Of a DNA stretch of 64,000 nt, positions 9,506-60,100 are shown piece by piece (the first letter of the stretch is position 1; every line of letters starts with the position of its first letter). The DNA comes from Halocalculus aciditolerans (lineage in GTDB: Archaea; Halobacteriota; Halobacteria; Halobacteriales; Halobacteriaceae), in the NCBI RefSeq assembly GCF_014647475.1, contig NZ_BMPG01000003.1, positions 124,001 to 188,000 of the forward strand. The letters are read 5' to 3'. Made by a program: the position numbers and the translations under genes. The notes under the pieces are model-generated. The model ran no database searches, had not been told where the DNA came from, and worked only from the letters and a program-made list of their open reading frames with translations.

Positions 9506-10264
9506 ATGACCGGAGACGGCGACGTGAAGGCCACCGACACGCTCTTCAGAATCCTCGACCGCCTCCGCGAGGCGGACGGCGCGGGCGTGACGGCGCTCGC
9601 CGACGACCTCGGCCTCGCGAAGAGCACGGTGCACTCCCATCTCTCGACGCTCAAGGCCCACCGGTACGTCGTTCAGGAGGACGGCGTCTACTACGTCGGG
9701 AACCGCTTCCTCGAACTGAGCGAGTACGCGCGCACGCGCCGGAAGGAGTACCAGCTCGCCGCGGAGCAGGTCTCGCAGCTCTGCGCGGAGACCGGCGAGC
9801 GCGCGCAGTTCATCACCGAGGAACACGGGAAGGGCATCTACCTCTACTGCGAGGGCGGCGAGCGCGCGGTCCACACGGAGTCCGGGGTCGGCCGCGAGGT
9901 CTTTCTCCACTCGACGGCGGCGGGGAAGGCGATTCTCGCGGCGCTCCCCGAGGCGCGCGTCGACGAAATCATCGACCGCTGGGGGCTCCCCGCGAGAACG
10001 GACGAGACGGTCGGCGACGCGGACGCGCTCCGCGCCGAGCTCGACGAGATCGCGGAGCGCGGCTACGCCTTCAACCGCGGGGAGAACATCCAGTCGCTCA
10101 ACGCCGTCGGCGTCGCTATCACGCGTCCCGACGGCTCGGTGAGCGGCTCGTTCAGCGTCTCCGCGCCCGCGCACCGCCTCGACGGCGACCGACTGGAGTC
10201 CGAGGTTCCGAAACTCCTCCTCGGCATCGCCAACGAACTCGAACTCAAAATCGCCTACAGCTAA
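9506..10264 (+). CDS. IclR family transcription regulator
   Basis: 252 aa from the ATG at 9506 (an alternative ATG at 9479 adds nine residues). An N-terminal winged HTH (VTALADDLGLAKSTVHSHL) is followed by the IclR ligand-binding domain from about residue 80, with HSTAAGKAILAALPE and the late GVAITRPDGSVSGSFSVSAP. These regulators sense small organic acids or aromatics. It lies immediately before the acyl-CoA dehydrogenase–MaoC–CoA-transferase–MmgE/PrpD group on the same strand, the most likely target. The acyl-CoA dehydrogenase has its own TATA box, so co-transcription is not required. Confidence 0.9.
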   Translation: MTGDGDVKATDTLFRILDRLREADGAGVTALADDLGLAKSTVHSHLSTLKAHRYVVQEDGVYYVGNRFLELSEYARTRRKEYQLAAEQVSQLCAETGERAQFITEEHGKGIYLYCEGGERAVHTESGVGREVFLHSTAAGKAILAALPEARVDEIIDRWGLPARTDETVGDADALRAELDEIAERGYAFNRGENIQSLNAVGVAITRPDGSVSGSFSVSAPAHRLDGDRLESEVPKLLLGIANELELKIAYS

Positions 10265-10443
10265 CCCCGAACACCACCCACTGCTCCCCGCCGTTCGTTC
10301 GCCAGCACCGAACACGTCCACCGGGAATTATCGCGGTCGAGACCGAAAACGCCATCGAGGGGGTTTCTACGGGGAATCCTCGACGCCGCCGCGGCGTCTG
10401 CGTTCGGCGTGAGGGAACGGCTCGTGGTCGCTCCGCGACCCGA

Positions 10444-10453
10444 TACTTTATAC
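10444..10453 (+). promoter_or_regulatory. TATA box of the acyl-CoA dehydrogenase gene
   Basis: TACTTTATAC centred about 30 bases before the ATG at 10479, giving a leaderless transcript and favouring that ATG over the GTG and ATG codons at 10467 and 10470. Confidence 0.55.
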
Positions 10454-10478
10454 TGGAGACTGTCGAGTGATGGCGTGT

Positions 10479-11684
10479 ATGCCCACGCACTGGCGGGACA
10501 CCGTCGCCCTCGACGAGCAACAGCGCCTGGTCCGCGAGAGCATCCGCGACATCACGGCGGACTTCGACGACGACTACTGGCGCGAACGCGACCGGAAGGC
10601 GGAGTATCCGACCGAACTCGTCGACACGCTCGGCGAGCACGGCTGGCTCGGCATCCTCATCCCCGAGGAGTACGGCGGCGTGGGCATGGGGACGAAGGAG
10701 GTCGCCGTGATGATGGAGGAACTCGGCGCGAGCGGCGGCGGATTTAGCGGCCCGCAGTCCATCCACGGCGGCATCTACAACTCCGTCCCGCTCATCCGCT
10801 ACGCGAGCGAGGAGCTGAAAGCGGAAGTCCTCCCGGGGATGGCGAGCGGCGATATCGCCCTCCAGTCGCTCTGTCTCACCGAGCCGAACGCCGGGTCGGA
10901 CTCGACGTCCATCGAGACGCGCGCCGAGAAGGAGGGCGACGAGTACGTCATCACCGGGCAGAAGATCTGGATCTCGCGCGTCGACCACTCCGACTACGCG
11001 CTCGTGATGGCGCGCACCACGCCGAAAGAGGACGTAGAGAAGCGCACGCAGGGCATCTCGATGTTCCTCGTCGACCTCGACGACGCCTACGACCAGGACG
11101 CCCTCGACATTGAGCGGATTCCGAAGACGGCGAGCCGGCCCGTCCACTCCTTCGAGATGTGGTTCTCCGGCCTCCGCGTCCCCGAGCGCAACCTCGTCGG
11201 CGTCGAGGGCGAGGGGTTCTACCAGCTCTTAGACGGCCTCAACGAGGAGCGCCTCGCCATCGCGGCGGAAGCGCTCGGCCTCGGGTTCGCCGCCCTCGAA
11301 TCCGCGGTGGATTACGCGAACGAACGCGTCGTCTTCGACCGCCCCATCGGGAAGAACCAGAGCATCCAACACCCCATCGCGGAGGCGTACGCCCGCCTCC
11401 GCGCGGCGAAGCAGGTGACGTACAGCGCGGCGGACGTCCTCGAAGACGTCGACCGCACCGAGGCCGGCGCGCGCGCGAACACCGCGAAATACCTCGCCGC
11501 CGACGCCGCCTTCGACGCCGCCGACATCGCCGTGCAGGCCCACGGCGGATTCGGCGTCGCCCGCGAGTACGACGTCGAGCGCTACTTCCGCGAAGCCCGC
11601 CTCACCCGCCTCGTCCCCATCACCCAGGAACTCGTCCTCAACTACCTCGGCAACAACGTCCTCGGCCTCCCCAAATCGTACTGA
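10479..11684 (+). CDS. Acyl-CoA dehydrogenase
   Basis: 401 aa. It has an all-alpha N-terminal domain to about 120, a beta domain with the FAD- and substrate-binding LCLTEPNAGSDSTSIETRA and WISRVDHSDYAL, and a C-terminal helical domain ending QAHGGFGVAREYDVERYFREAR. It oxidises an acyl-CoA to the 2-enoyl-CoA, passing electrons to ETF. The usual catalytic Glu of the short/medium-chain type (the YEGT segment after REAR) is replaced by VPITQ. The base may lie elsewhere, as in isovaleryl-CoA dehydrogenase-like enzymes, which act on branched substrates. It is the first gene of a four-enzyme group. Confidence 0.9.
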   Translation: MPTHWRDTVALDEQQRLVRESIRDITADFDDDYWRERDRKAEYPTELVDTLGEHGWLGILIPEEYGGVGMGTKEVAVMMEELGASGGGFSGPQSIHGGIYNSVPLIRYASEELKAEVLPGMASGDIALQSLCLTEPNAGSDSTSIETRAEKEGDEYVITGQKIWISRVDHSDYALVMARTTPKEDVEKRTQGISMFLVDLDDAYDQDALDIERIPKTASRPVHSFEMWFSGLRVPERNLVGVEGEGFYQLLDGLNEERLAIAAEALGLGFAALESAVDYANERVVFDRPIGKNQSIQHPIAEAYARLRAAKQVTYSAADVLEDVDRTEAGARANTAKYLAADAAFDAADIAVQAHGGFGVAREYDVERYFREARLTRLVPITQELVLNYLGNNVLGLPKSY

Positions 11685-11771
11685 TGCTGACTCGCCTGAC
11701 GGACCGAGTCAGAGTGATACCGACACCCACGAACGACCACGAACCCACTCGACGCACGCTCACACGACTCC

Positions 11772-12335
11772 ATGACTGACACCAACGACGCAGATTCGAA
11801 CCGACGACTCGCCGCCGGCTGGCAGGGCCGCTACTACGAGGACTTCCAGGTCGGCGACATCTACAAACACCCGTTCGGGCGGACCGTCACGGAGACGGAC
11901 AACGTCTGGATGACGAACCTCACGATGAACCTCAACCCGATGCACTTCAACGAGGCCTACGCGGCCGAGACGGAGTTCGGCGAGCGCCTCGTCGACGGGA
12001 CGTTCGTCATCGCGCTCGCCGTCGGGATGAGCGTCATCGACGTCTCCGTGAACGCGACGGCCAACCTCGGTTACGACGACATCCGCCACCACGCGCCCGT
12101 CTTCCACGGCGACACCATCTTCGCCGAATCCGAAGTCATCGAGAAACGCGAGAGCAGCAGCCGCGACCACGTCGGCATCGTCACCACGGAGCTCCGCGCG
12201 TACAACCAGGAGGGCGAACTCGTGCTCTCCCTCGAACGCACGCCGATGGTCCTGAAACGCGAGTACGCGCAGCCGACCGCCGCGCAGCCGCCGGGGTGGC
12301 CCGAAGGCATCGGCACCCAGCCCGACGACCTATGA
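11772..12335 (+). CDS. MaoC-type hot-dog enoyl-CoA hydratase
   Basis: 187 aa. A hot-dog fold is suggested by YYEDFQVGD at about 20-28, NLNPMHFNEAYA at about 55-66 and the FGERLVDGTFV helix. In the canonical R-hydratase motif (GDxNPxH) the acid is Asp; here it is Asn (MNLNPMH). Either the chemistry differs or another residue serves. The family includes mesaconyl-CoA hydratase and hydratases of C4-C5 acids. Its stop overlaps the ATG of the CoA-transferase gene (ATGA at 12332), showing translational coupling, and it follows an acyl-CoA dehydrogenase by 87 bases. The most likely role is hydration of the enoyl-CoA made by that enzyme. Confidence 0.82.
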   Translation: MTDTNDADSNRRLAAGWQGRYYEDFQVGDIYKHPFGRTVTETDNVWMTNLTMNLNPMHFNEAYAAETEFGERLVDGTFVIALAVGMSVIDVSVNATANLGYDDIRHHAPVFHGDTIFAESEVIEKRESSSRDHVGIVTTELRAYNQEGELVLSLERTPMVLKREYAQPTAAQPPGWPEGIGTQPDDL

Positions 12336-13801
12336 CGGGCGTCCCCGACTCGCGGCTCGTCGGCGACCTCCCCGTTACGTCCCCCGCGGACGCCGCGGCC
12401 GCGCACGTCGGCGACGACGACACCCTCGTCGTCAGCGGCTTCGGGAGCGTCGGCGACCCGAAGGCCGTCCCCGGCGCGCTCGCCGACGCCGCCGAAGCCG
12501 GCCGCGACCTCTCGCTCACCGTCGTCTCCGGCGGGAGCACCGGCGCGCCCATCGACACCCGGCTCTTCGAGGCCGACGCCGTCGCCCGCCGCTACCCCTT
12601 CCAGGGGCGACAGGAATCGCGGCGCGCCATCAACGACCGCGACGTCGCCTTCCACGACACACACATCGCCCGGCTCGGCGACCAGGTCGAACTCGGCGCG
12701 CTCGCCGACGCCGACACCGCCGTCGTCGAAGCCGTCGCCGTCGGCGAGGACTGGCTCGTCCCCTCGACGTCCATCGGGCAGACCCCGGCGTACGTCGCCG
12801 CCGCCGACCGGCTCGTCGTCGAAGTGAATCACGCCCAGCCACTCGACCTCGCCGACCTCCACGACGTCTACCGGCCCGGCCTCCCGCCGGACCGGGACCC
12901 GATTCCGCTCGACAGCGTGGACGGCCGCATCGGCGACGCCCGCCTCGACTTCGACCCCGAGAAGCTCGTCGCCGTCGTCGAAACCGACGACGCCGACACG
13001 CCCTACAGCTTCCGGGAACCCACCGACGTCGACGAACGCATCGCCGACCACTTCGCGGACTTCCTCGAAGCCGAACTCCGCCGGAACCCCGCCATGTGCG
13101 AGACGATCCGCCTCCAGTTCGGCGTCGGCAGCATGGGGAACGCGCTCATGGGCGCGCTCGCCGCGTTCGACGACGGCGGCCGCGACGTCGAATACTTCGG
13201 CGAAGTCGTTCAAGACGGGATGCTCGACCTCCTCGCCGACGGCACCTTCCAGAGCGCCTCCGCGACGTCGCTCGCGCTCTCCGAGGACGGCCAGGAACGC
13301 CTCTTCGACGACATCCAGGCGTACACGGAGAACCTCGTCCTCCGCCCCGCCGACGTCTCGAACCGCGCCGAGCTCGTCGACCGCTTCGGCGTCGTCGCCG
13401 TCAACAGCGCCGTCGAAGTCGACATCTATGGGAACGCGAACTCCACTCACGTCGACGGGCGACGCCTCCTCTCCGGCATCGGCGGGAGCGGCGACTTCAA
13501 CCGGAACGGCCTGCTCTCCATCACCGCGCTCCCCTCGACCGCCGCCGGCGGCGACGTCTCCCGCATCGTCCCCGCCGTCACCCACGTCGACCACCCCGAA
13601 CACGACGTCTCCGTCGTTATCACCGAACACGGCGTCGCCGACCTCCGCGGCCTGAGCCCGGTCGAACGCGCCGAAACCCTCGTCGCGGACTGCGCCCACC
13701 CCGACTACCGCGAGCGCCTCCACGCCTACCTCGACCACGCCACCGACGAGCGCGGCCACATCCCCCACGACCCCGACGCCGCCTACGACTGGCTCGACTA
13801 G
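12332..13801 (+). CDS. Acetyl-CoA hydrolase / CoA-transferase family protein
   Basis: 489 aa from the ATG overlapping the MaoC stop. It has the two-lobed CoA-transferase family I architecture: an early VVSGFGSVGDPKAVP and STGAPIDTRLFEA, and a second half with VNSAVEVDIYGNANSTH, GIGGSGDFNRNG and ITEHGVADLRGLSP. These are the conserved segments of acetyl-CoA hydrolase, succinyl-CoA:acetate and 4-hydroxybutyrate CoA-transferases. It probably activates the cluster's carboxylic acid by CoA exchange or releases the acid product. Substrate specificity cannot be read from sequence. Confidence 0.88.
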   Translation: MTGVPDSRLVGDLPVTSPADAAAAHVGDDDTLVVSGFGSVGDPKAVPGALADAAEAGRDLSLTVVSGGSTGAPIDTRLFEADAVARRYPFQGRQESRRAINDRDVAFHDTHIARLGDQVELGALADADTAVVEAVAVGEDWLVPSTSIGQTPAYVAAADRLVVEVNHAQPLDLADLHDVYRPGLPPDRDPIPLDSVDGRIGDARLDFDPEKLVAVVETDDADTPYSFREPTDVDERIADHFADFLEAELRRNPAMCETIRLQFGVGSMGNALMGALAAFDDGGRDVEYFGEVVQDGMLDLLADGTFQSASATSLALSEDGQERLFDDIQAYTENLVLRPADVSNRAELVDRFGVVAVNSAVEVDIYGNANSTHVDGRRLLSGIGGSGDFNRNGLLSITALPSTAAGGDVSRIVPAVTHVDHPEHDVSVVITEHGVADLRGLSPVERAETLVADCAHPDYRERLHAYLDHATDERGHIPHDPDAAYDWLD

Positions 13802-13849
13802 TCGGCCGCGACGCGAACGTTTTTCATCGCGGCCGCCCACGCGTGTGGT

Positions 13850-15220
13850 ATGCCTTCGCAGTCACCAGCCCGTGCGGAGACGCCGGCGGCGACGCTCGCG
13901 GCGTTCGTCGCTGACACCGACTTCGACGACATCCCGCCCGACGCGCGCGAGACGGCCGCTCGCGCCATTACGGACACCGTCGGCGTGACGCTCGCCGGCC
14001 TCGGACACGAGAGCGCCAGCATCGCCGGCGGCGTCACCGGCTTCGACACCGACGGCTTCCCGGCCGGCGGCGAGACGGGCGGGTCGCGCGCCGAACTCGC
14101 CCTCCTCTACGGCACCGCCGCGCACGCCCTCGACTACGACGACCTCTCCTGGGCGATGGACGGCCACCCGAGCGTCGTCCTGCTCCCACCCATCCTCGCT
14201 CTTGCGGATTCTACGGACCCGTCGGGCGCGGACGTCGTGACGGCGTACGCGGTCGGGTTCGAGGTGGCGTGCGCGCTCGCGGAGCCAATCAGCCCGGAGC
14301 ATTACGAGGCGGGGTGGCACGCGACGTCGACGTTCGGCGCGCTCGGCGCGACCGCCGCCGCCGCGTCCCTCCTCGACCTCGACGAGGGAACTGTCGAGAC
14401 GGCGTTGAACGTCGCCGCGTCGACGGCGTCGGGCGTGAAGGAGAACTTCGGGAGCATGACGAAGCCGCTGCACGCCGGCCTCGCCGCGCGCTCCGGCGTC
14501 ACCGCGGTCCTCCTCGCCCGCGAAGGCTTCACCGCGGGCGCGAACGCCATCGACGGCGAGAAGGGCTTCTGGTCGCTCTACGGCGCGGGCACCGGCGACG
14601 ACGCCGCACTCGCCGCCCCGCCGACCACCGAGGGCTGGACGCTCTCCGAGCGCGGCATCCACATCAAGAAGTATCCCGCCTGCTACTTCACGCACTCCGC
14701 CATCGCCGCCGCCCGCGACCTCGCCGCGGATCACGGTGTCGACCCAGACGAGGTCGAGTCCGTCCGCGTCACCGCGGCGGGCGGGGCGGGCGACGCGCTC
14801 GCCTATCCCGACCCCGACACCGCGCTCGAGTCGAAGTTCTCCATGCAGCACGCCGTCGCCGTCGCGCTCACCGCCGACCGCGTCTCCCTCGACTGGTTCG
14901 CCCCCGACGCCGTCGACGACCCGTCGCTCGTCGCGCTCCGCGACCGCGTCACTTTCGCCGTCGACGACTCCCTCCACTACGACTCGCACGCGTCGACCGT
15001 CCGCATCGAAGCCGACGGAGACACCTACGAGACAGTCCGAGAACACCCGCCGTGGACGCACGACCACCCGCCGTCCGCCGACGAACTCGAGGCGAAATTC
15101 CTCGAAGCCGCGTCGCGCACCGTCCCCGAGGACACCGCCCGCGAGACGTTCGCCGCGCTCCGGACGCTCGCCGACCCCGACACCGACGTCGCCGCGCTCC
15201 TCGCCCCGCTCCGTCCCTGA
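13850..15220 (+). CDS. MmgE/PrpD family protein (dehydratase/decarboxylase type)
   Basis: 456 aa. Conserved family segments are YGTAAHALDYDDLSWAMDGHPS (about 85-106), GWHATSTFGALGA (about 160-172), GSMTKPLHAGLAA (about 201-213), NAIDGEKGF and KYPACYFTHSAIAAA (about 269-283). The family contains 2-methylcitrate dehydratase, cis-aconitate decarboxylase (which makes itaconate) and iminodisuccinate epimerase. The typical length of 450-480 aa is met. In this context (MaoC hydratase, CoA-transferase, acyl-CoA dehydrogenase) a role in a tricarboxylate or C5-dicarboxylate pathway is plausible. No methylcitrate synthase or methylisocitrate lyase is nearby, so standard propionate degradation is not supported. 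Confidence 0.87.
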   Translation: MPSQSPARAETPAATLAAFVADTDFDDIPPDARETAARAITDTVGVTLAGLGHESASIAGGVTGFDTDGFPAGGETGGSRAELALLYGTAAHALDYDDLSWAMDGHPSVVLLPPILALADSTDPSGADVVTAYAVGFEVACALAEPISPEHYEAGWHATSTFGALGATAAAASLLDLDEGTVETALNVAASTASGVKENFGSMTKPLHAGLAARSGVTAVLLAREGFTAGANAIDGEKGFWSLYGAGTGDDAALAAPPTTEGWTLSERGIHIKKYPACYFTHSAIAAARDLAADHGVDPDEVESVRVTAAGGAGDALAYPDPDTALESKFSMQHAVAVALTADRVSLDWFAPDAVDDPSLVALRDRVTFAVDDSLHYDSHASTVRIEADGDTYETVREHPPWTHDHPPSADELEAKFLEAASRTVPEDTARETFAALRTLADPDTDVAALLAPLRP

Positions 15221-15247
15221 CGCTGTCCCCCGCGGTTTCCCTCCGCC

Positions 15248-15853
15248 TCACTGGTCGCTGACGTACGTCTCGCCGCGGCGCTCGTACTCCATGCGCGACG
15301 CCACGGCGTCCGCGACGCTCGCGCCGAACTCGCGTTCCACGAGGTAGAGCGCGAGGTCGATGCCCGACGTCACGCCGCCCGCGGTCACCACGTCGCCGTC
15401 GTCGACGACGCGCGCGTCGACCACGGTCGCCCCTGACGCGCGGAGGTCGTCGAGCGCGCCGCGATGCGTCGTCGCGGGCCGCCCGTCCGTCACGCCCGCC
15501 CGCGCGAGCAACATCCCGCCGGTGCAGACGCCCGCGACGGTCACGCCCGCGTCGTGGAGGTCACGGACGCGCGCCGGGAGGACGCCGCGTTCGGCCTCCG
15601 CCCACGCGCCAGTCTCCCCGCGTGCGTTCCACTGCCCGCCCGGCACGACCAGGAGGTCCGGGTCGCGGTCGTCGAGGCGGCCCTGCGCCTCGAACGTGAG
15701 GCCGTGACTCGCCGTCACCGTCGGCGCGTCGTCGAGCGTGCAGAGCGTCACCGCGAGGTCGACGCCTTCGTCGGCGGCGTTCGCGAACACCTCGTACGGC
15801 CCGACCGCGTCCAGTTCGTCGACGCCGTTGAACGCCACGATAGCGATATCCAT
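15248..15853 (-). CDS. DJ-1/PfpI family glutamine-amidotransferase-like protein
   Basis: 201 aa. It opens with MDIAIVAFNGVDELDAVGPYEV, typical of the isonitrile-hydratase and AraC-regulator N-domain branch. It has LLVVPGG near 68-73 and the nucleophile elbow GVCTGG with Cys110. No HTH follows, so it is an enzyme-only form. Candidate activities include isonitrile hydratase or glyoxalase/deglycase-like reactions; the exact substrate is unknown. It converges with the MmgE/PrpD gene, 27 bases apart. Confidence 0.82.
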   Translation of the reverse strand: MDIAIVAFNGVDELDAVGPYEVFANAADEGVDLAVTLCTLDDAPTVTASHGLTFEAQGRLDDRDPDLLVVPGGQWNARGETGAWAEAERGVLPARVRDLHDAGVTVAGVCTGGMLLARAGVTDGRPATTHRGALDDLRASGATVVDARVVDDGDVVTAGGVTSGIDLALYLVEREFGASVADAVASRMEYERRGETYVSDQ

Positions 15854-15904
15854 ACGACTACTGGGTCGGGCGGCGAAAAAACGGTTACGCGCGAATCGGA
15901 GCCG

Positions 15905-18043
15905 CTACTTCTTGTCCGGCGTGCCGGCGGCCGGCGGGGAGTCGCCGCCGACGCCGAGCGCGCCCATCGCGACCGCGACCGGGTTCGGGCGGCCGACGAC
16001 GGACTGCAGGACGTACATCGCGACCGCGATAGCGACCGCGATTGCCTGCACGGTCCGCGACGGGTGCACCATCGCGAGGATTCCCGTCACGAAGAACGCG
16101 ACGCGGGACGCCGCCGTGATGGCGCGCCCGAAGACGAACCGGTAGTTGATGCCGTGGATAATCGCGATTGCGCCGAACATCGCGAGCACCCCGGACGTCA
16201 GCGAGGGCGCGTCGAACGCCGCCGAGACGAGCTCGGGGTGGTAGACGAACGCGAACGGCAGGACGAAGAGCGGCGCGGAGATCTTAATCGCCTCCCAGCA
16301 GCTCTTCCAGAAGTTCGCGCCCGCGATACCGCACGCCACTGCGACACACGTCGCGATTGGCGGCGTGAGACCGGCGAGAATCGCGGCGTAGAACACGAAG
16401 AAGTGCCCGGCGAACTCGGGGAGGAAGAACTGGCTGATGAGCGTCGGCGCGACGAGGAGCGCGACGATGGTGTAGGAGGCCGTCGTCGGCATCCCCAGCC
16501 CGAGGATGATGCAGATAATCATCGAGAGGATGGCGGCGACGAGCAGGACGCCGCCGGAGAGGTCGAGGAGCGTGAGGGAGATCGCCGTCGGCACGCCGGT
16601 CGCCGTGAGGATGTCGACGACGCCGTTGATGGCGGCGAGAATAATCGTCACCGGCGCGAGGACGACGACGCCCTCGCGCGCGCCGTCCAGCGTCTCCCAG
16701 AGCGTACGCTTGAGCGCGTCGAACGGCTCCTCGTCGACGTCCGTCAACGCGGCCTTCACGACCGGGAAGGAGACGCCCGTGAGGAACATCGCGACTACCG
16801 TCCAGAGCGCCGCCGTCCCGACCGTCACCTGCTCGACGCCGAGCTTGTAGATGAGGACGGCGAGCGGGATGCCGTACTTCAGGCTCTCCATGGCGAACTC
16901 GCTGCGCGGCATCTTCTCCTGGAGGAGGCCGTCCGCGTTCGAGTTGTCGAGCTGCGGCGCGGCGACGTAGTGGACGGCGACGAAGATGGTGAGCGAGAGG
17001 ATGGCGGCCGGCATGAGACCGGCGATGATGACGTCGACGTACGTCACGCCCGTGATGAGCGACGCCATGATGAACGCGCCCGCGCCCATGACGGGCGGGA
17101 GCACCTGCCCGGCGGTGGACGCGACCGCCTCGATCGCGCCCGCGGTCTCCGGCTTCACGCCGTTCCGCTTCATCAGCGGAATCGTGAACGACCCCGTCAT
17201 CCCGGCGTTCGCCGTCTGACTCCCGTTCACGGAGCCGATGACCGCAGAGGAGAGCACGGCCGTCTGCGCGATACCGGAGTCGATGTACTTCGCGGAGCGG
17301 AACGCGACCCGCATGATGAGGTCGAACGCCCCGTATCCCTTCAGGAAGCCCGCGTAGAGCAAGAAGAGCGCGATCCACGCGGCGACGAGCTGCGTCAGGA
17401 ACCCGAAGAAGCCGTCGACGCTGATGACGACCGTGCGGAGGATGCGCTCGATGCCGAGTCCGCCGTGCTGGAGCGGCCCGGGCGCGTACATCCCGAAGTA
17501 GCCGTAGAGGAAACCGGCGGCGACGACGGCGAGGAACGTCCCGCCGAACGACCGCCACGTCAAGTAGATGATGACGAAGGTGAACACCGCCGCGCCGACG
17601 TACTCGTGCGGGAGCGCGCGGCCGGAGCGCTCCACGTAGAGCGCCTGGAAGTTGACGAGCATGTAGATGGCCGTGACCGCGACGTCAATCGCCGAGAACG
17701 ACAGCAACGCCGCGTCGATGCGGTTCCCCGGCCCGTACGCGCGCCGCACGTCCTCGACGAGGTTCTCCCGCCCGCCGCCCGCGAGGTCCATGATCTCCGT
17801 CAGAATGTACAGTTCGAGGATGCTGCCGAGGAAGAGCACGCCGTACTTCGCGCGCGGCCACGGGAGGGCGTACGCGTACCAGATCGCGGTCCCCCAGAAC
17901 ACGACCGAGAGCCCGATGAGGACGTTCCGGAGGGAGACCAGCTCCGCGTCCCACGGGTCTTCCCGCTCGATCTCGGTTCCGGTGGTCGCGCTCTCCGCGG
18001 CATCCGCCGCGTCCGCGTTCGATTCACTCACCCGACACCACAT
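15905..18043 (-). CDS. TRAP transporter fused permease (DctQ-DctM, 4TM/12TM)
   Basis: 712 aa. A hydrophilic N-terminus precedes four helices of the small DctQ-like half and then about 12 or more helices of the large DctM-like half, with NGSQTANAGMTGSFTIPLM, LPPVMGAGAFIMA and GLGMPTTASYTIVALL as the usual conserved TRAP loops. Fused permeases of this length go with TAXI-type binding proteins, and one is encoded just upstream on the same strand. The transporter uses ion gradients to bring in organic acids. The start at 18043 is ATG; a GTG at 18031 (giving SESNADAAD) is also possible. The neighbouring catabolic genes suggest what it imports. Confidence 0.92.
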   Translation of the reverse strand: MWCRVSESNADAADAAESATTGTEIEREDPWDAELVSLRNVLIGLSVVFWGTAIWYAYALPWPRAKYGVLFLGSILELYILTEIMDLAGGGRENLVEDVRRAYGPGNRIDAALLSFSAIDVAVTAIYMLVNFQALYVERSGRALPHEYVGAAVFTFVIIYLTWRSFGGTFLAVVAAGFLYGYFGMYAPGPLQHGGLGIERILRTVVISVDGFFGFLTQLVAAWIALFLLYAGFLKGYGAFDLIMRVAFRSAKYIDSGIAQTAVLSSAVIGSVNGSQTANAGMTGSFTIPLMKRNGVKPETAGAIEAVASTAGQVLPPVMGAGAFIMASLITGVTYVDVIIAGLMPAAILSLTIFVAVHYVAAPQLDNSNADGLLQEKMPRSEFAMESLKYGIPLAVLIYKLGVEQVTVGTAALWTVVAMFLTGVSFPVVKAALTDVDEEPFDALKRTLWETLDGAREGVVVLAPVTIILAAINGVVDILTATGVPTAISLTLLDLSGGVLLVAAILSMIICIILGLGMPTTASYTIVALLVAPTLISQFFLPEFAGHFFVFYAAILAGLTPPIATCVAVACGIAGANFWKSCWEAIKISAPLFVLPFAFVYHPELVSAAFDAPSLTSGVLAMFGAIAIIHGINYRFVFGRAITAASRVAFFVTGILAMVHPSRTVQAIAVAIAVAMYVLQSVVGRPNPVAVAMGALGVGGDSPPAAGTPDKK

Positions 18044-18155
18044 CCGTTACGCCGCGCACCGGCGGCGCGCTCAATGTATTGTATCTGTTCATAGTCGTGC
18101 TGCGTTCGAAAGAGTAGTTACGAGAAGCCGGTTCATGGAGGCGGGGTCGGCGACG

Positions 18156-19268
18156 CTACTCGTTCGTCGACCCGGCCGTCCACTCGTCGTTCCAGACGTC
18201 GTTCTCCTTGAAGAAGTTCGCCACGCCCGGGTGGATTTCGAGGTCGGGGATGACGGCGGTCGTCATCGACTCCGGGTCCGAGTGGTCGAGCGTCGTCGGG
18301 TCGGCCTGCTGAATCGTCTCCCAGTGCTCGCTCGCGAGCCGCGCGACCTCGTGCGTCGCTTCCGCGGGAACGTCCGGACCGAACGCCCACTGCCCGGAGA
18401 GCACCCAGGACGTCGTCGTGTCCGTGATGCTCGTCACGTTCTGCTCCCAGCCGTAGGGTTCGAGCGTCTTCTTAATCGCGCCGGGGACGTTGTCGATTGC
18501 CTGCTCGAAGTTGTCGTCGACCTCGATGATGTTCAGCCCGCCGCCGCTACGGACGTCGACCTCCTGCACCCAGCTGGAGAGCGCGACGCCGTTCGCCCCG
18601 TAGACACAGAGCGCGTCGACGCGGCCTTCCTCGACCGCGCCAGAGATGTCGCTCGTTCCGACGTTGAGGATGTCGTTCTGCTCCCAGAGGCCGGCCTCCT
18701 TGATGACCTCCTCGGTGAGGAGGCGCGTCCCGAACCCGGGCTGAATCGGATAGATGGTGTAGCCGCCCTCTTGGAGGTCGGCGGTCGACTCGATTCCGGA
18801 TTCCTCCGTCGCCACCCAGTAAATCTCGAGGTTCGTGAAGACGTACCCCTGCATCGGGAGGCTGTCCACGGGCTCTTCGGCGAACGGCCCCTCGTCGTTC
18901 ATCGCCTTCGAGAGGGAGTTGTTGTCGACGCCGATCGAGGAGACGTTCCCGCTGTCGAACTCGTAGAGGTTCGCCGTCCACCCGTCCGTCACCTGCACGC
19001 TGATGTCGAGGATGTCGCTGTGCTGCTGTGCCGCGCGGGCGAGCGCCTGCCCGGCCTGCTGCGTCGAACTCCCCGACGACGTCCCGGCGATGACGATCTG
19101 GTAGTTACCGCCACCGCCACCGCCGCCGCCACCGTCACCGCCGCCGTCTCCGCCGCCATCGCCACCGCCTCCCCCGCTGCCGCCACCGGAACAGCCGGCC
19201 ATCCCGATGACGCCCATCGTCGCGGCTCCTTTCAGCACATCGCGCCTGTCTATGTCATCACTAACCAT
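18156..19268 (-). CDS. TAXI-family TRAP transporter solute-binding lipoprotein
   Basis: 370 aa from the ATG at 19268, the start that puts the Tat motif near the N-terminus (DRRDVLKG). The signal ends in a lipobox MAGC, followed by a Gly/Asp-rich linker of about 40 residues. The mature domain begins YQIVIAGTSSGSSTQQAGQA, the SGG/TGxxY-like start of TAXI proteins, and has GYTIYPIQPGFGTRL in the middle. It captures the substrate outside the membrane and hands it to the fused TRAP permease encoded downstream (112 bases away), probably in one operon. TAXI proteins often bind glutamate, 2-oxoglutarate or other dicarboxylates; the ligand here is not known. Confidence 0.9.
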   Translation of the reverse strand: MVSDDIDRRDVLKGAATMGVIGMAGCSGGGSGGGGGDGGGDGGGDGGGGGGGGGNYQIVIAGTSSGSSTQQAGQALARAAQQHSDILDISVQVTDGWTANLYEFDSGNVSSIGVDNNSLSKAMNDEGPFAEEPVDSLPMQGYVFTNLEIYWVATEESGIESTADLQEGGYTIYPIQPGFGTRLLTEEVIKEAGLWEQNDILNVGTSDISGAVEEGRVDALCVYGANGVALSSWVQEVDVRSGGGLNIIEVDDNFEQAIDNVPGAIKKTLEPYGWEQNVTSITDTTTSWVLSGQWAFGPDVPAEATHEVARLASEHWETIQQADPTTLDHSDPESMTTAVIPDLEIHPGVANFFKENDVWNDEWTAGSTNE

Positions 19269-19379
19269 GCAACTACACGATTGATAATGGCCCATATTAA
19301 GTTTAGCGCTGCACGCAACTGGCTTTCGTGCCGGCCCCCTGAATCTACTAGTCCGACCCCGGTCGGCGGTCAGCGGTCG

Positions 19380-19841
19380 CTACTTCGCGACGATGACCGG
19401 GACGTCGCTGTCGAGAACGACGCCCTGCGTGACGCTCCCGAACACCGCCTTCCCGACCGGGCTGCGCTTCCGGCCGGCGACCAGCACCGCGTCCGCCTCG
19501 GCGTCCGCCGCCGCACTGAGTATCTCCTCGACCGGCTCGCCCGTCAGCTCCGCGACGTCGGTCGGCACGTCGAGCGCGCGGAGCTCGTCCGCGACGTCGT
19601 ACACCGCGTCCGGGACGCCTTGGAGTTCGCCGATCTCCTCGTTCACGGCTTCGATGATGGACCGGCCGGCTTCGTCCGCCGGGACGTCGATCTCCTCGTG
19701 CACGTAGAGCACCGTGACTTCGAGCTCGTCCCGTCCCGGCAGCCCGCGGAGGGCGTCGATTTGGTTCGCGGCGCGCTCCTCGTTCCCGTCGACCGCTGCG
19801 AGTACGTGATACACACCCACGGGTTCCGAACCGTCCATCAT
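19380..19841 (-). CDS. Universal stress protein (UspA) domain protein
   Basis: 153 aa, starting at tandem ATGs (19841/19838) just after the stop of the tautomerase gene. It has an alpha/beta Usp fold, with VYHVLAAVDGNEERA at the start and the ATP-binding signature GRKRSPVGKAVFGSVTQGVV near the end (G-x2-G-x9-G-S). Usp proteins are repeatedly found beside TRAP transporters and in one studied case (TeaD) regulate transport. Its position 111 bases upstream of the TAXI gene on the same strand fits such a role. Confidence 0.85.
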   Translation of the reverse strand: MMDGSEPVGVYHVLAAVDGNEERAANQIDALRGLPGRDELEVTVLYVHEEIDVPADEAGRSIIEAVNEEIGELQGVPDAVYDVADELRALDVPTDVAELTGEPVEEILSAAADAEADAVLVAGRKRSPVGKAVFGSVTQGVVLDSDVPVIVAK

Positions 19842-19851
19842 TAATGTTCGC

Positions 19852-20232
19852 TCACTCGTCCGGCGGCGACCACGCCCCGCCGACGCGGTCTGCGCCCATG
19901 AGCTCGTCACCGTCGTGCTCGGTGAAGACGACTTTCAGGTTCGGGCGCGGGAGCTCCCACTCCCCGTGCAGCCAGTCGATGACGGCGAGCGCGAACGCTC
20001 GCCGCCGCTCTGCGGACCGCCCGCGTCGCACGTCCGCGTTCAACACCGCAATTGGACCGTCGACGGCGCGGCCGAGCGCCATCGCCGCCGGCGGGTGTTC
20101 GCGCACGGCGACCGCGACGTGGCCGGCCGTCGTCGCCATCTCTTCTGTGTACTGGGCGGTGACCGCGTCGGTAAAGGCCCGGCGCGCCGCGTCGTCCGGC
20201 GTCGCCGTCGTGTCGAGTGCGAGGTACGGCAT
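19852..20232 (-). CDS. Tautomerase-superfamily protein (Pro1 type)
   Basis: 126 aa. The sequence starts Met-Pro-Tyr-Leu, and Pro1 after Met removal is the catalytic base of the 4-oxalocrotonate tautomerase/MIF superfamily. The length matches the two-beta-alpha-beta forms (about 110-150 aa). The segment TAGHVAVAVREHPPAAMALG followed by later NADVRRGRSAERRRAFA resembles the repeated half. These enzymes tautomerise 2-oxo or enol acids, or dehalogenate or hydrate unsaturated acids. Its presence beside organic-acid import and CoA genes suggests it processes an intermediate of that pathway. Confidence 0.7.
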   Translation of the reverse strand: MPYLALDTTATPDDAARRAFTDAVTAQYTEEMATTAGHVAVAVREHPPAAMALGRAVDGPIAVLNADVRRGRSAERRRAFALAVIDWLHGEWELPRPNLKVVFTEHDGDELMGADRVGGAWSPPDE

Positions 20233-20280
20233 CGACTCCTCGTAGGAACTCCCCCGAGTAAAGCGGCGTCGGCTCCCCGG

Positions 20281-21471
20281 TCACTCCGCCGACGCGGCGG
20301 ACTCCGGGGTCGACTCCGCGAGGATGACGCGGACGACGAACCCAGCGCCGACGAGAGCGAGACCGGCGAGCAACAGCCAGCTCCACCGGTAGCCGACGGT
20401 GTCCGCGAGGTGGCCGAAGACCGGCGGCGCGACCAGCGCCCCGGACGTGAGCGCGAGCTGGCCGCCGCCGGTCGCGCCACCCATCTCCTCCGCGGAGACG
20501 ACCGTCGCCATACAGGAGTAGTAGACGCCGGTGAACCCGAGGACGAAGAAGCCGAGCACGACGAAGGTCGCCGCCGCCGCGAGCCGCCCCTCGACGAACG
20601 CGGCGACGACGAACAGCGCCGCGCTCGCGACGGCCTGCACGAGCAGTATCGCGCCGATGCGCCGCCGCGGGTCGCCCGGGAGCGCGTCGCTCAGCCAGCC
20701 GGTGACGACGCGGCCGACGCTCCCCGACACCTGGAGGGCGGCGAGGACGACGCCGCCGAACGCCACCGACGCGCCGACCGACTCCTCGACGTAGAGAATC
20801 GTGTAGCCGGTCGTGGTGAACAGCCCCGCGCCGAGACACACGCCGGCCGCGGCGAGCGAGCGGTACGGTCGGTTCGCGAGCAGCCGTCGGAAGTCCGGAT
20901 ACGACGCCTCCCCCGTCTGCTCGCCGCGGGGGTACGCCACCCAGAACGCCAGCGCGACGGCGACGCCGACGGCGGTGGCGACGTAGAACCCGGCCTGCCA
21001 GTAGAGCACGCTCGCCAACCCCGTCACGAGCAGCGCGCTCGCGCCGCTCCCCGCCGTCACCCCGACCTGCTTCACGCCGATTGCGAGGTTCTGCCGGCCC
21101 GGCGGCGTCCGGTCGAAAATCGCCTTGTTCGTCCCCGGCATCGCCGTCCCGTACACGGACCCGAGGAGGAAGACGCTCACGAGCAACACGAGGTAGGAGT
21201 CCGCGCGCGCGACGAGCGCCGTCCCCACCGTCAGCCCGAGCAGCCCGGCCGTGAGCGTCCGATGCTCGCCGAACCGGTCCGTCAGCGCCCCGAGCGGCAA
21301 CAAGAACACCGCGTACCCGAGCGTCAGCGCCGTCACCACCAGCCCGACCGCCGCACCACCCAACCCGAACTCGTCCCGGAAGAAGGGCGTCGCCGCGAAC
21401 ACCGCGTAGTAACACACGCTCGCCGCCACCTGCCACCCGAGTATCAGCGTGACGACGCGGTAAACACTCAT
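20281..21471 (-). CDS. Major facilitator superfamily transporter
   Basis: 396 aa from the ATG at 21471; upstream in-frame codons would add a non-hydrophobic leader. Twelve membrane helices are predicted by eye. The loop between helices 2 and 3 has the MFS motif GALTDRFGEHRTL (G-x3-D-R-x-G), with a related VTGWLSDALPGDPRRR in the second half. The substrate is unknown. It lies 48 bases upstream of the tautomerase gene on the same strand, so it may belong to the same catabolic island and provide a second import or an export route. Confidence 0.87.
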   Translation of the reverse strand: MSVYRVVTLILGWQVAASVCYYAVFAATPFFRDEFGLGGAAVGLVVTALTLGYAVFLLPLGALTDRFGEHRTLTAGLLGLTVGTALVARADSYLVLLVSVFLLGSVYGTAMPGTNKAIFDRTPPGRQNLAIGVKQVGVTAGSGASALLVTGLASVLYWQAGFYVATAVGVAVALAFWVAYPRGEQTGEASYPDFRRLLANRPYRSLAAAGVCLGAGLFTTTGYTILYVEESVGASVAFGGVVLAALQVSGSVGRVVTGWLSDALPGDPRRRIGAILLVQAVASAALFVVAAFVEGRLAAAATFVVLGFFVLGFTGVYYSCMATVVSAEEMGGATGGGQLALTSGALVAPPVFGHLADTVGYRWSWLLLAGLALVGAGFVVRVILAESTPESAASAE

Positions 21472-51935: not shown

Positions 51936-52042
51936 GCGGGGTTACAAGGAGACTAACGGGAAGGACGACGGTTCGACCCGTCGAGTTTCGGTTTTTAAGT
52001 GATGGTCTGTCTGTGAGCGAGTGAGGAAACTATCTGCGAGTA

Positions 52043-52609
52043 ATGGCAAGCCAATATTTGGTATCGATACCCGTCTCACCCAATGGTGACATAATCCCCG
52101 TAGAATACTCTCTCACGATGAAATCTAATGCTGATATACTGCTCACGGACGCCAGAGGGGAGATACCGAAACAGGCGTTCACCGGTGAGCAGAGTGGGTT
52201 ATTCGGGAAGAAGTATCTCGCTGGGCCGCCGGTGTCCGATCGGCTCAAAGAAGGCGAACAGATCCACTCCCTCCCTCGTCAACCGTTCCAGCGGAGTGAT
52301 GATCGAATCCCGTGACGCAGGCGAATCTCGGTCAGTAACATCGGGGAGCGAGTATCGGTCAATCGCCGTCGTTACCGACCAGCGCGTGTCCTTCGTTATC
52401 GGTGAAGCGCCGGAGGATACGTTCATCGAAGTCCCCGCAACCGAAGTGACGGGCGCGGAGCATCGTGGCAGCCTCTTCTCGACGACGATACTCACCGAGA
52501 CGGATCGGAACAATACACCTTCAGTGTCAAGGAGCGCGGGTCATCCGACCCCCAAGACGCGGTGTCCTATATACGGCACGAGCACGTTCCGGTGACCCCG
52601 ACCGAAGAA
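52043..52609 (+). pseudogene. Decayed PH-domain-like protein gene
   Basis: Coding resemblance continues through three frames. Frame one from ATG 52043 contains SGLFGKKYLAGPPVSDRLKE then GEQIHSL. It switches near 52280 to a frame with SEYRSIAVVTDQRVSFVIGE and FIEVPATEVTGAEHRGSLFS, typical of haloarchaeal PH-like (bPH) domains. It switches again at about 52508 to QYTFSVKERGSSDPQDAVSY. Two frameshifts in 500 bases make an intact product impossible. The family call is from the pattern VTDQRV...F plus EVPATEVTGAE. Confidence 0.55.
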
Positions 52610-53540
52610 CCAGAGACTGAAGCCGAACAGCTCGAACCCGGTGATGGACAGTTACCGGAAGCGGAGATGTGCAAGCACTACGAGCCACGGGAACTCGAAG
52701 TCACGGCCGATAGTGGTGGGACGACGACCGTCCAGATCGTTGGGATGGTCGGCGGGAAGGAGGCACGCGACGAGCTACCGACGTACGGCCGGCACTCCGC
52801 TCAGTTCGGGATCTGGCTCGCGAAAGACCACATCGAGGTCGAACGATCGAACGAAGCAATCCTCGTGGCAACGAATTCATCCACCTCCTCTTCGTTGCGA
52901 ACCCCCAGGACATCGTGCTCTCGGCGAACCGCGAGAAGATCCGGAACAAGTCGAGTCCGATCTACCAAGCGATCGAAAAGCAACTGAGCTACTCCCTCTC
53001 GAAGATCACGAGCGACCCGTGGTTCAAAGAGTACTCGATCAACGCCGCGTCGCCGAGTTGAACCCGAAGGCGAAATCGCAACAGAACTTCATCGAGGACC
53101 GCGTCGAGCAGATTACCGCTCGCGACCACCTCGAACCGTCTAATAAGGCCGAAGTCGTACTGGCCCTCGATCAGTCGAATCGTCTCGGCGCGAAGCCCAC
53201 GATTACCGTTAAGGATTTCGACCCAGGAGGAGACGCGAATCCCGTCATCGAGCGGAGCGGGAACCGCTACGGCGGCTCCGTACATCGGCAGCTGACAGAC
53301 CACTTCACGGAGGACAGGCCACTCGAGAGCATCTCGAAGATCATCTGCTGGTCGATCGGCGACCGAGACAAATTACGGCAGCTCGAACGCCGAGGCTACC
53401 ACAACGAACGGGTCTCATTCGACCTAGAAAACAACCGGATCGAGTGCGGAGCCGGTAGTACACGAGTGATACACGTCATTCAGGTCGCGCCGCCAGTCCA
53501 ACAACTCGGCCAGGAAGCAGGTCAAGTGACGCTCGACTAG
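52610..53540 (+). pseudogene. Decayed gene, possible GHKL/HSP90-like ATPase fragment
   Basis: The reading is continuous across at least two frameshifts (about 52868 and 53050): first LEVTADSGGTTTVQIVGMVG and PTYGRHSAQFGIWLAKDHIE; then NEFIHLLFVANPQDIVLSAN followed by REKIRNKSSPIYQAIEKQLS; finally an intact frame with NFIEDRVEQITARDHLEPSN, ending VQQLGQEAGQVTLD at 53540. The ANREKIRNK stretch resembles the middle region of GHKL-type ATP-binding proteins seen in accessory islands, but this is a loose similarity. The N-terminal ATP-binding part is missing. Confidence 0.45.
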
Positions 53541-54102
53541 GGGGTCAGACGGGGAAAGCTGACAAACCAGCAGTTCGCCGATCGTAACGAAGAGGCGGTC
53601 GATCTCTTTTCGAGAGGATGACCTCGTCGTTTGCGGTGGAGGGGAATCTCACTCGACGGTCTACTTGTGCTGGAGGAGGACGGTGATCTTGTGTGGGTTG
53701 GGATTCTCTTCGCGGCGAATTCGTCTTGGGGACTCCGAAAGAGTACCATGAACAGAACAGTCCCGGAGTCGTGTCGTTCAAACTCCGAACACCCGTCTCA
53801 TCGGTCCATTCGACGAATTCTGTATGTGTCTCGTTGTAGAGTTGTTCTATTTGCTCAAGAGCGTGTGCGGTGTCATGGCTAACGGTCGCGTTCGCTTGCA
53901 ATCCACTGAGTGCGGTCCGTTCAATCCGGCAGAATAACCCTGAGAACGGGCTCATCAAGCAGACCGTTCGGTTCTCGGTCGTCGACGACGTTCCGAAAGA
54001 CGGCCTCCATCGCGTCACTGATAGAGGATTACGAGTCGAGTGGCGCGTCATATAGACCCTACAAAGGACGGCTCGTTAGAGGTGTGATAGTCTTCGATGG
54101 TC
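53541..54102. other. Non-functional stretch with coding debris
   Basis: About 560 bp. Minus-strand fragments such as TAHALEQIEQLYNETHTEFV and, in another frame, VFRNVVDDREPNGLLDEPVL look like eroded protein sequence, but stops and frame changes interrupt them. I could not assign a parent gene. Confidence 0.4.
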
Positions 54103-54600
54103 GTGTTTAGTTTAGCGAGTTCCACCAGACGGCGAAGGCCTGCAACCACGTTTCTGCGGTCTCTGGATCGACGTGGCCGAAACTATCGATGAACGAGGAA
54201 GTACGCCGTTTTATTTCTCTAAGGACACGTTTGACGGCGTTCCGATTTCCATGGCGAATAGTTTGACATCGGAGGCCTGCTCGATGCAGTGCAGCCGCTC
54301 GATGCTTGGCGTGATCGACGAGGAACGCGGCGTCTGTGACGTCACGTTTCTCACGAAGCTCTCGCAGAAACTGCTGTGTCAGTACCGTTGAAGTCGTCGT
54401 AAACACCCTCATGTGGCGGATTTTTCTCGTCCCGGGAGCGGCGGCGGTGTACAACCAGATTCTCTGACCAATAATTCGGCTCACCGTCTCGTTAAGCGCG
54501 ATGTGATCCGGACTCACGTCGCTAGCTGGCTGTGATTGGATTTCTGTACCTAGTCGTGAATCGCTTTTCGCGACCGTTCGATGTCGAACTTTTCGAGTTT
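54103..54600 (-). pseudogene. IS6-family transposase remnant A
   Basis: An open minus-strand frame from about 54517 to the TAA at 54107 reads DHIALNETVSRIIGQRIWLY, QQFLRELREKRDVTDAAFLV, HGNRNAVKRVLREIKRRTSS and ends ETAETWLQAFAVWWNSLN. This is the C-terminal two-thirds of an IS6-type DDE transposase. Upstream, IERSRKAIHD is followed by a stop, and the N-terminal domain is otherwise lost. The stop codon lies within GTGTTTAGTTTAG (54103-54115), probably the element's terminal repeat. Confidence 0.75.
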
Positions 54601-54690
54601 TGATTATATGCTTGAAGGTGATGGTTTCGACAGGTGAAGTCGAATATCGAGCTCCATCAGCTCGCTCGGTGTCCGCTCTCGCTCCAGGCG

Positions 54691-55379
54691 GTGTTCAGAT
54701 AAGGATGAAGAGTGAGACGGAGCGATCTTCTAGTGGTTCATGCCAGAAATCGCCCGCCTCATCGGTGGTAGCGACTGCTTCGAGTTAGATTTTCTGGAGC
54801 GAGCGGCGGCACCCGAGTCCGCGATGAAGCTCGGTATCCGACTGCATCTGGCCGGACTGTCACTTTCGGATACTGTTTCAATTCTCGATAGATCGGGTAT
54901 CGAACGCCGTCGAACCACCGTTCACAACTGGGTGCAGAAGGCAGGTCTACAGCCGCTCAATGGTGCGAGTCCGGATCACGTCGCGGTTGACGAGACCGTG
55001 ATCCAACTCGATGACGAACGATTCTGGCTGTACACCGCTGTCGATCCCGCCACGAATCGCTTGCTGCACGTCAAGCTCGCTCCGACGAGAAATCAAGCAA
55101 TTACCGAGATGTTCCTCGCGGAACTCCGCGACAAACATCTCGTCGATGACGCAGTCTCCCTCGTCGATTCTCCACTGTGGATGCAAGCAGCACTCCATCG
55201 CCGCGGTTTCGATTACCGATACGAAACACACGGTAATCGAAACGGCATCGAACGTATCTTCCGAGAACTAAAACGTCGAACTAACTAGTTCTCAAACTAT
55301 TTCAGCCACGCCGAAGCAGAGACCGTCGAAAATTGGCTTCAAGCGTTCGCCTTCGCATGGAACCAGTTTATCTGAACAC
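54691..55379 (+). mobile_element. IS6-family insertion sequence B (inactive)
   Basis: A 689-bp element bounded by 12-bp perfect terminal inverted repeats: GTGTTCAGATAA at 54691-54702 and its complement TTATCTGAACAC at 55368-55379. The size and single transposase gene fit small haloarchaeal IS6-type elements. No matching 8-bp target duplication is seen (TCCAGGCG left, TAGGAGAC right), so rearrangement after insertion is likely. It abuts remnant A. Confidence 0.8.
54740..55375 (+). pseudogene. IS6-family transposase with one internal stop
   Basis: The frame starts ATG 54740 (MPEIARLIGGSDCFELDFLE) and includes RRTTVHNWVQKAGLQPL, the first catalytic Asp in DHVAVDETVIQL, the second in DAVSLVDSP and the Glu in GIERIFRELKRRT. 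An in-frame TAG at 55286 is followed by FSNYFSHAEAETVENWLQAF and a TGA at 55375, exactly where a complete IS6 transposase would end. At that position related transposases have Gln (CAG), so a single C-to-T change explains the stop. Full length would be about 211 aa. Confidence 0.82.
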
Positions 55380-55624
55380 TAGGAGACGAGCGGAGACAAT
55401 CTTCAGGGCGTTCGCCATCCGCCTCCACGCGGCCAGTCGTCTCATCTAACAGAGAATAAATACTTTCGGATATTTCGTGAAACGCTCGCATCAAGCGATC
55501 TTTCAGAGGATAACTCGGGTATCTGATAGTATTGGCGACCCATCGGCGACGAAGCCCTCAAGGGTCGCGTTTGACGAGAACGCTATCGGGTTCAACGGCG
55601 GTTAGTCTTGATAATACGGCGCAA

Positions 55625-56021
55625 TAGCCATCGACACAAAACTAATTCTCGAAGTTGAGTTGCTCGGGCGCTATACACAGATCCAGCGGCTGTGCTCCCG
55701 CGTGGACTCCGCGAGAAACACGAGCTCTCCGACACGATGTTTCTCGTCGATCAGTTCGTCTACCCGGCTGGAATCACTCGACCAGGGTTGAACACCTGTG
55801 TGGGATATACCGACTGGGACCTCATCGAAAAGCGGTCTCTCTTCAAAATACTCATCGACTGTTCCCATAATTCGTGGGTGGGATGTCGGTCGAGTGCACG
55901 CGAATTTCTTGAACGGTGCGTGCATTACTACAACCGACAGGGACTGCATCAATTGCTCGATGAGAACACGCCGATCGAGGAGGTACTAAACCAGACAATG
56001 CCGGTACGGTCGCAGAATTAG
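55625..56021 (+). pseudogene. Transposase remnant C (DDE/rve type)
   Basis: A first frame contains TKLILEVELLGRYTQIQR, then after a frameshift near 55680 the sequence runs LREKHELSDTMFLVDQF, SWVGCRSSAREFLERCVHYY and NRQGLHQLLDENTPIEEVLN. The HYYNRQ-x3-HQ-LDE-x-TPIEEV ending is typical of DDE transposase C-termini. It differs in family from elements A and B. The catalytic core is incomplete, so it is not active. Confidence 0.65.
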
Positions 56022-56252
56022 AGGCGTACATGTTGATAAGGTAACCACATACAACACGACCTCACACAGACATTTACAAGGGTACGCTTGTAAAATAAAT
56101 CCTCTTTATCTAGACCATGATGAGATGGTACTTTACAATTATATTCCTGTAATCCCACTGTAGCTGGGTAGACCGACGCCGCTCCTACAGTGCATTGCAA
56201 ACTTGCTGTCATCTATCACTCACTACGAGTGTCCGAGCTCTTCTGCCCGCGG

Positions 56253-60087: not shown

Positions 60088-60100
60088 CTTCACTACCGGA

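Follow-up and report, generated by a model that had tools for sequence, protein, structure and literature searches.

Degradation of itaconate and methylsuccinate in Cupriavidus and Pseudomonas is encoded by a cluster comprising a CoA-transferase, a hydratase, a lyase, an acyl-CoA dehydrogenase (ACAD) and a member of the MmgE/PrpD family (PMC12290011, PMC9875883). The MmgE/PrpD protein of that cluster is an (S)-(R)-methylsuccinate isomerase (Msi), and its ACAD is an (RS)-methylsuccinyl-C4-CoA dehydrogenase (Mcd). The subject of this report is an island of genes at positions 9506 to 21471 of a 64,000-nucleotide stretch (the window) of contig NZ_BMPG01000003.1 from the haloarchaeon Halocalculus aciditolerans, in which five plus-strand genes, from an IclR-family regulator to an MmgE/PrpD gene, face six minus-strand genes, from a DJ-1 gene to a major facilitator superfamily (MFS) carrier (Table 1). 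We propose that the island may import and degrade a small 2-substituted succinate, with methylsuccinate as the best single candidate and itaconate as a possible side substrate, a reading to which we assign a probability of roughly 45%. The island is probably an archaeal variant of the pathway recently described in soil bacteria.

Computation establishes which genes are present, how they are conserved, where they fall among the families and which active-site residues they have; the pathway steps are all predicted from these sequences. The TAXI-type tripartite ATP-independent periplasmic (TRAP) transporter would import the acid, and the MmgE protein would racemise the free acid to the enantiomer accepted by the next enzyme. 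The class-I CoA-transferase (CoAT1) would move CoA from succinyl-CoA onto the acid, the ACAD would form mesaconyl-C4-CoA, and the MaoC hydratase would convert this ester to citramalyl-CoA. Cleavage of citramalyl-CoA to acetyl-CoA and pyruvate would fall to a CLYBL/RipC-like lyase whose gene lies in another part of the genome, and the IclR protein would act as the switch. The original prediction for this DNA had proposed a C5 dicarboxylate as the substrate; this idea is well supported as regards the class of substrate, although a thiolytic alternative had not been considered. Its statement that the genes do not match a textbook route has to be corrected, since the same enzyme classes together with a lyase make up the published Pseudomonas/Cupriavidus cluster (PMC12290011, PMC9875883) and the genome has, at another place, a candidate for a CLYBL/RipC-type lyase.

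The window island shares with the ich-mcd-msi-ict-ccl clusters of C. necator and P. aeruginosa (PMC12290011, PMC9875883) a CoA-transferase, a MaoC-type hydratase, an ACAD of the same superclade and an MmgE/PrpD protein, and a TRAP importer lies beside the P. aeruginosa cluster as it does in the window. The C. necator loci that we recovered, in the order ACAD, CaiB, MmgE, CitE, agree with the gene set of PMC12290011. The island differs from these clusters in that it has no linked lyase, its CoA-transferase is class-I whereas the C. necator loci match CaiB references, its hydratase is RipB-like rather than Pseudomonas-type, its MmgE belongs to a separate clade, and it has a TAXI-type TRAP transporter and an IclR regulator. 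The ripABC cluster of the Yersinia pestis type, compared through its Paraburkholderia caribensis copy, has a RipB-like hydratase that is 48.5% identical over 171 residues, and its CoA-transferase carries, by annotation, the same C-terminal domain; it differs in having a linked lyase and neither an ACAD nor an MmgE. Transfer of CoA to a C5 dicarboxylate and its hydration are also known in haloarchaea from the Mct, Mch and Mcl enzymes of the Haloarcula methylaspartate cycle, although these enzymes act on C1-CoA esters (PMC5592240). In the window genome, the gene for the haloarchaeal malate synthase AceB adjoins an isocitrate-lyase-like gene, the latter named from its translation. No description of a haloarchaeal cluster of this kind was found in the available portions of the literature on methylsuccinate isomerase or on haloarchaeal methylsuccinate and itaconate, a body of papers from which subscription journals were mostly absent.

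Recurrence of the cluster in haloarchaea

A search across the order gave MmgE homologues (E 1e-60 or better) in 56 of 293 genomes, and 40 loci near the closer homologues were read from the 59 places listed. Locus genes were labelled by tblastn against annotated references, and only labelled genes were counted. ACAD, MaoC, CoAT1 and MmgE were found all together at 14 of the 40 sampled haloarchaeal MmgE loci (the window counted), and 8 of these 14 also hold the TAXI protein and the TRAP permease; the co-location of the four enzymes is therefore beyond chance and not accidental. At 12 others of the 40 loci, MmgE, ACAD and MaoC are accompanied by a CaiB-type CoA-transferase instead of the class-I enzyme.

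The window MaoC, used as a query, has matches at E 1e-80 in 84 of the 293 genomes. The MaoC survey scanned 101 loci, fetching 60 places not already covered and leaving out G089 and G096 (short contigs), and 88 loci had the conserved MaoC, the first MaoC per locus being counted. Neighbours at the 88 loci include ACAD (51), CoAT1 (38), MmgE of the window group (27), TAXI (19), a short-chain dehydrogenase/reductase (SDR; 14), thiolase (12) and a CitE-type lyase (1). TAXI adjoins 19 of the 38 CoAT1 loci versus none of the 20 CaiB loci (p 6e-5). Because some contigs end close to the cluster, neighbours may have been missed.

The same blocks lie on annotated plasmids of Halobaculum, Haladaptatus, Haloprofundus, Natrinema and Halorussus, and other records hold variant blocks or none. 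The order of the window genome includes plasmid-bearing Halobaculum, and one sampled genome of that order matches a Halobaculum magnesiiphilum plasmid at 100%. A wider reading, which we put forward tentatively, is that haloarchaea, often on megaplasmids, have built an island of their own for the degradation of a 2-substituted succinate. Its parts would be an MmgE of a separate clade, a CoA-transferase of class I, a dehydrogenase of the Mcd type, a hydratase of the RipB type and an importer of the TAXI type, with the end step supplied by an unlinked core lyase or by an SDR together with a thiolase. On this reading the MmgE clade would be a new racemase of its family, and the acid it acts on may be one that has yet to be counted among the natural substrates of brines. 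Methylsuccinate isomerases have been assigned to Pseudomonadota in 96.2% of cases, and in the text of that paper haloarchaea appear in the reference list only (PMC12290011). If a widespread haloarchaeal counterpart exists, the turnover of branched dicarboxylates would reach into hypersaline waters, the MmgE/PrpD family, which is poorly characterised, would gain a new specificity, and there would be a lead to what archaeal TAXI-TRAP importers carry.

Family placement of the four enzymes

The window ACAD is 43-49% identical to 14 bacterial Mcd-group rows, and in a tree of 48 of the 69 collected ACAD rows plus five PDB rows it forms one superclade with the bacterial Mcd-group ACADs (SH-aLRT 100, with outgroups limited to the five PDB and ten local rows). 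All 17 Mcd signature residues are present in it, whereas several of them, including Arg171, Tyr104 and Gln133, are missing from two actinobacterial homologues found in other gene contexts. On the Mcd profile the window protein scores 425 bits, and the PDB and other local ACADs score 238 or less, although two actinobacterial ACADs from other contexts reach 434-448. The window ACAD and the bacterial Mcd group have in common Glu261 on helix G and Pro384 at the position of the usual Glu, a pattern that we take to be the motif of isovaleryl-CoA dehydrogenase itself. Methylsuccinyl-C4-CoA may be viewed as isovaleryl-CoA with a carboxylate in place of one methyl, hence as a beta-branched substrate, and for this reason the Glu261/Pro384 pattern would suit it. 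In isovaleryl-CoA dehydrogenase, moving the base to helix G makes space for the beta-branched substrate (PMC5798300).

The best NCBIfam match of the window MaoC is the RipB/Ich model NF038241 (181.7 bits, profile positions 20-169 of 175), versus 93.9 bits for the haloarchaeal Mch model. An Asn replaces what we take to be the usual catalytic Asp of hydratases in all 88 haloarchaeal MaoC tblastn hits. The same Asn occurs in Paraburkholderia RipB and in two structures of the mesaconyl-CoA-hydratase type, and 1q6w, 4ffu and PaaZ have Asp. The CoA-transferase scores 506.4 bits on NF053853, the model for the succinyl-CoA:acetate CoA-transferase ScpC, over the equivalog cut-off of 500, and stays under the cut-off of TIGR03458; since it passes the ScpC cut-off, it is consistent with succinyl-CoA as the CoA donor.

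By both sequence and fold, the nearest structure to the MmgE protein is iminodisuccinate (IDS) epimerase (Z 50.6), with cis-aconitate decarboxylase (CAD) at Z 47-49 and PrpD at Z 32-39; the AlphaFold model places the protein in its known fold only, that is, among the families listed in that comparison. The residues that have been proposed to carry out the enolate chemistry of the MmgE/PrpD family are in place. Residues H106, Y152, H157, K205 and K273 are invariant in 35 MmgE rows, and H106, Y152, K205 and K273 match the two-base set of Msi (His102/Tyr148 and Lys202/Lys266), a set that is not diagnostic of Msi, as it is also found in IDS epimerase and B. subtilis MmgE. On the most economical reading, the protein racemises or epimerises a substituted succinate and arose independently of Msi.

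IDS epimerase being the nearest structure also brings to mind degradation of an iminodisuccinate-like aminopolycarboxylate, in which the MmgE protein would be an IDS-type epimerase and a PurB-family lyase would split the C-N bond. PurB-like lyases do adjoin some haloarchaeal loci (2 of the 88 MaoC loci), but the window cluster has none, and such a route leaves the CoA-transferase, the ACAD and the hydratase unexplained; we regard it as highly improbable.

Another possibility is that the PrpD member is CAD-like, as raised in the original prediction, or else methylcitrate-dehydratase-like, and that the island degrades a tricarboxylate. The common fold would allow for this, and locus L096, on a plasmid of Halomarina sp. 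BND7, combines a more distant MmgE, an ACAD and a MaoC with a TcuA-like tricarballylate dehydrogenase, an ICL/PEP-mutase gene, an MFS gene and an IclR gene and is possibly a tricarboxylate variant. Comparison of the active-site residues points the other way for the window protein, in which the second base is a Tyr (Y152), as in IDS epimerase and the methylsuccinate isomerases; this position is occupied by Met in CAD and by Asn in E. coli PrpD. The window protein is 26% identical to CAD and 21% identical to E. coli PrpD. Moreover, the window cluster contains neither a methylcitrate synthase nor a methylisocitrate lyase, as had been noted before, and TcuA adjoins just 1 of the 88 MaoC loci. Degradation of a tricarboxylate by the window island is thus very unlikely.

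The cleavage step

The earlier observation that no citramalyl-CoA lyase lies near the cluster holds, as all five PF03328 matches over the cut-off are elsewhere in the genome. The best PDB match of the unlinked candidate, a CitE protein, is human CLYBL (1.1e-49), which we take to be a citramalyl-CoA lyase. The gene for this CLYBL-like CitE lies near a second RipB-like MaoC gene and glutamate-dehydrogenase-like genes.

A second cluster in the same genome consists of an IclR gene, a decayed MmgE gene, ACAD (68%), MaoC (81%), CoAT1 (58%), an MFE2-like SDR and a thiolase; the MmgE remnant, which has stops and frame changes, lies outside the window and upstream of the second run (G000 C3:266.9-267.3 kb; L243:6872-7273). 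Because this paralogous cluster continues into an SDR and a thiolase, a thiolytic route for a different dicarboxylate is a serious rival to the methylsuccinate pathway. In this scheme of (R)-specific beta-oxidation of another dicarboxylate or 2-alkylsuccinate, MmgE would first epimerise the free acid, the CoA-transferase, ACAD and MaoC would yield a secondary 3-hydroxyacyl-CoA, and the SDR would oxidise and the thiolase cleave that product. The absence of a linked lyase from the window island agrees with this scheme, as do the SDR genes adjoining 11 of the 38 CoAT1 loci, the thiolase genes at 3 of the 38 CoAT1 and 4 of the 20 CaiB loci, and a related actinobacterial ACAD gene that adjoins FabG and thiolase genes. 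The window cluster, however, has no SDR or thiolase, 35 of the 38 CoAT1 loci have no thiolase, and the hydratase and ACAD signatures favour mesaconyl/itaconyl-type substrates, although the MaoC of the paralogous cluster has the same Asn. We consider beta-oxidation of this kind somewhat unlikely for the window island.

Several observations weigh against degradation of methylsuccinate or a similar succinate as proposed here. On an Msi profile built here from 12 rows (distinct from the published profile, which has a cut-off of 550), the window MmgE scores 159 bits versus 672-821 for the Msi rows, it has Asp at the position of Msi Glu91, and a single clade of the window MmgE and Msi was rejected (AU p 0.009). 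The window MaoC misses the RipB/Ich equivalog cut-off of 340 bits, two actinobacterial ACADs from other contexts score as high on the Mcd profile (434-448 bits) as the window ACAD does, and the genome's CitE misses the RipC/Ccl equivalog cut-off (205 vs 375 bits). A CitE-type lyase lies within 7 kb at none of the 38 CoAT1 loci. Nor is the unlinked CitE specific to the cluster, as it is present at 50% identity or more in 13 of the 14 four-gene genomes but also, at 49% or more, in 14 of 20 genomes that have no MmgE match at 1e-60, and one genome (G221) has the cluster without a CitE match at 1e-30. Finally, the continuation of the paralogous ACAD-MaoC-CoAT1 run into SDR and thiolase is unfit for a tertiary-alcohol product.

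Assignment of the window MmgE as an Msi orthologue was ruled out by the tree (from which seven duplicate rows and one partial row, 8 in all, had been removed), the profile score and the AU test. For the Msi references, three proteobacterial plasmid records gave one MmgE, of another type, and a search of whole records gave the Cupriavidus ACAD-MmgE pair. Linkage of the lyase through co-occurrence was likewise abandoned, because genomes that lack the cluster have the core CitE almost as often, so that its co-occurrence proves nothing. In G186 the core CitE is absent, and a CitE-like gene lies about 2.3 kb from its MaoC.

Importer, accessory genes and variant loci

No TRAP type other than TAXI has been reported in archaea. 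Among bacteria, a TAXI protein of Vibrio is specific for glutamate and a TAXI system of Proteus for 2-oxoglutarate (PMC11574862), and use of itaconate by P. aeruginosa requires the TRAP transporter IctPQM (PMC12599236). These precedents would fit a C5 dicarboxylate without fixing it. The window solute-binding protein scores 69.8 bits on TIGR02122, under the cut-off of 84.35, and its N-terminal sequence has a twin-Arg and lipobox-like motif (RRDVLK...GMAGC).

Table 1. Genes of the window island, with positions in the window
Gene product	Position	Strand	Evidence
IclR-family transcriptional regulator, likely local regulator	9506..10264	+	Pfam IclR_C 5.7e-28, HTH_IclR
ACAD, methylsuccinyl-C4-CoA dehydrogenase superclade	10467..11684	+	Glu261 at IVD-type helix-G position, Pro384 at usual catalytic Glu
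MaoC hydratase, RipB/Ich-mesaconyl-CoA hydratase kind	11772..12335	+	NF038241 1.1e-53, under cut-off
Class-I succinyl-CoA-type CoA-transferase	12332..13801	+	NF053853 ScpC, over cut-off
MmgE/PrpD protein, probable racemase/epimerase of substituted succinate	13850..15220	+	PF03972 6.7e-55; nearest structure IDS epimerase; conserved catalytic residues
DJ-1/PfpI protein, accessory	15248..15853	-	PF01965 1.5e-27
TRAP fused permease of TAXI-TRAP importer	15905..18043	-	TIGR02123 392.3 bits, cut-off 320.65
TAXI solute-binding lipoprotein	18156..19295	-	PF16868 64.4 bits, over cut-off
Universal stress protein (Usp) adjoining TRAP genes	19380..19835	-	PF00582 7.3e-15
Tautomerase-superfamily protein with Pro1, accessory	19852..20232	-	Predicted fold and invariant Pro
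MFS carrier, accessory	20281..21471	-	PF07690 1.7e-45

All of the genes named in the original prediction were recovered in place and in the families it had given them (Pfam, NCBIfam). The IclR gene starts with the ATG at 9506, and its product reaches none of the NCBIfam equivalog cut-offs (best BhcR, 118 vs 350 bits). The ATG of the CoA-transferase gene overlaps the MaoC stop by 4 bases, and position 21471, where the earlier note had also ended, is an internal Met of the MFS frame. Candidate operators in the intergenic stretches came to short, GC-rich inverted repeats, which were unconvincing. The tautomerase stays below every Pfam cut-off (best E 0.0026), yet its assignment stands because its AlphaFold model (pLDDT 87) matches malonate semialdehyde decarboxylase, cis-CaaD and 4-OT in Foldseek (E 6e-9) and because all 19 aligned rows have Pro2. 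Its gene occurs with the cluster again in some loci of family f5, but the tautomerase family, found in 90 of the 293 haloarchaeal genomes, is too common to serve as a pathway marker and was dropped as one. The DJ-1 gene adjoins the cluster again in other haloarchaea, and the MFS gene does so in other loci. At window positions 52001-64000 the GC content falls to 0.55-0.59, versus 0.66-0.75 in the rest of the window, and this drop suggests foreign or mobile DNA.

Variant loci were seen as well. Seven loci (L103, L104, L261, L263, L265, L271 and L277) have the same ACAD-MaoC pair with an enoyl-CoA hydratase, CaiB and an acetate--CoA-ligase-family gene and are without the MmgE group of the window. 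Three loci (L102, L260 and L270) join MaoC-CoAT1 and ACAD genes to the hydantoinase genes HyuA/HyuB, with an Asp/Glu racemase-family gene also present at L102, and these gene sets possibly serve a nitrogen-containing precursor. In family f8 (L071, L074, L077, L078, L079, L085 and L086), a dihydroorotate-dehydrogenase-like gene directly follows MmgE. A plasmid of Deinococcus sp. QL22 (L099) carries in one run MmgE, two TPP-enzyme genes, PxpA, ACAD, CaiB, a malyl-CoA-lyase-like gene and MaoC, and this run is a bacterial variant whose lyase is of a different type.

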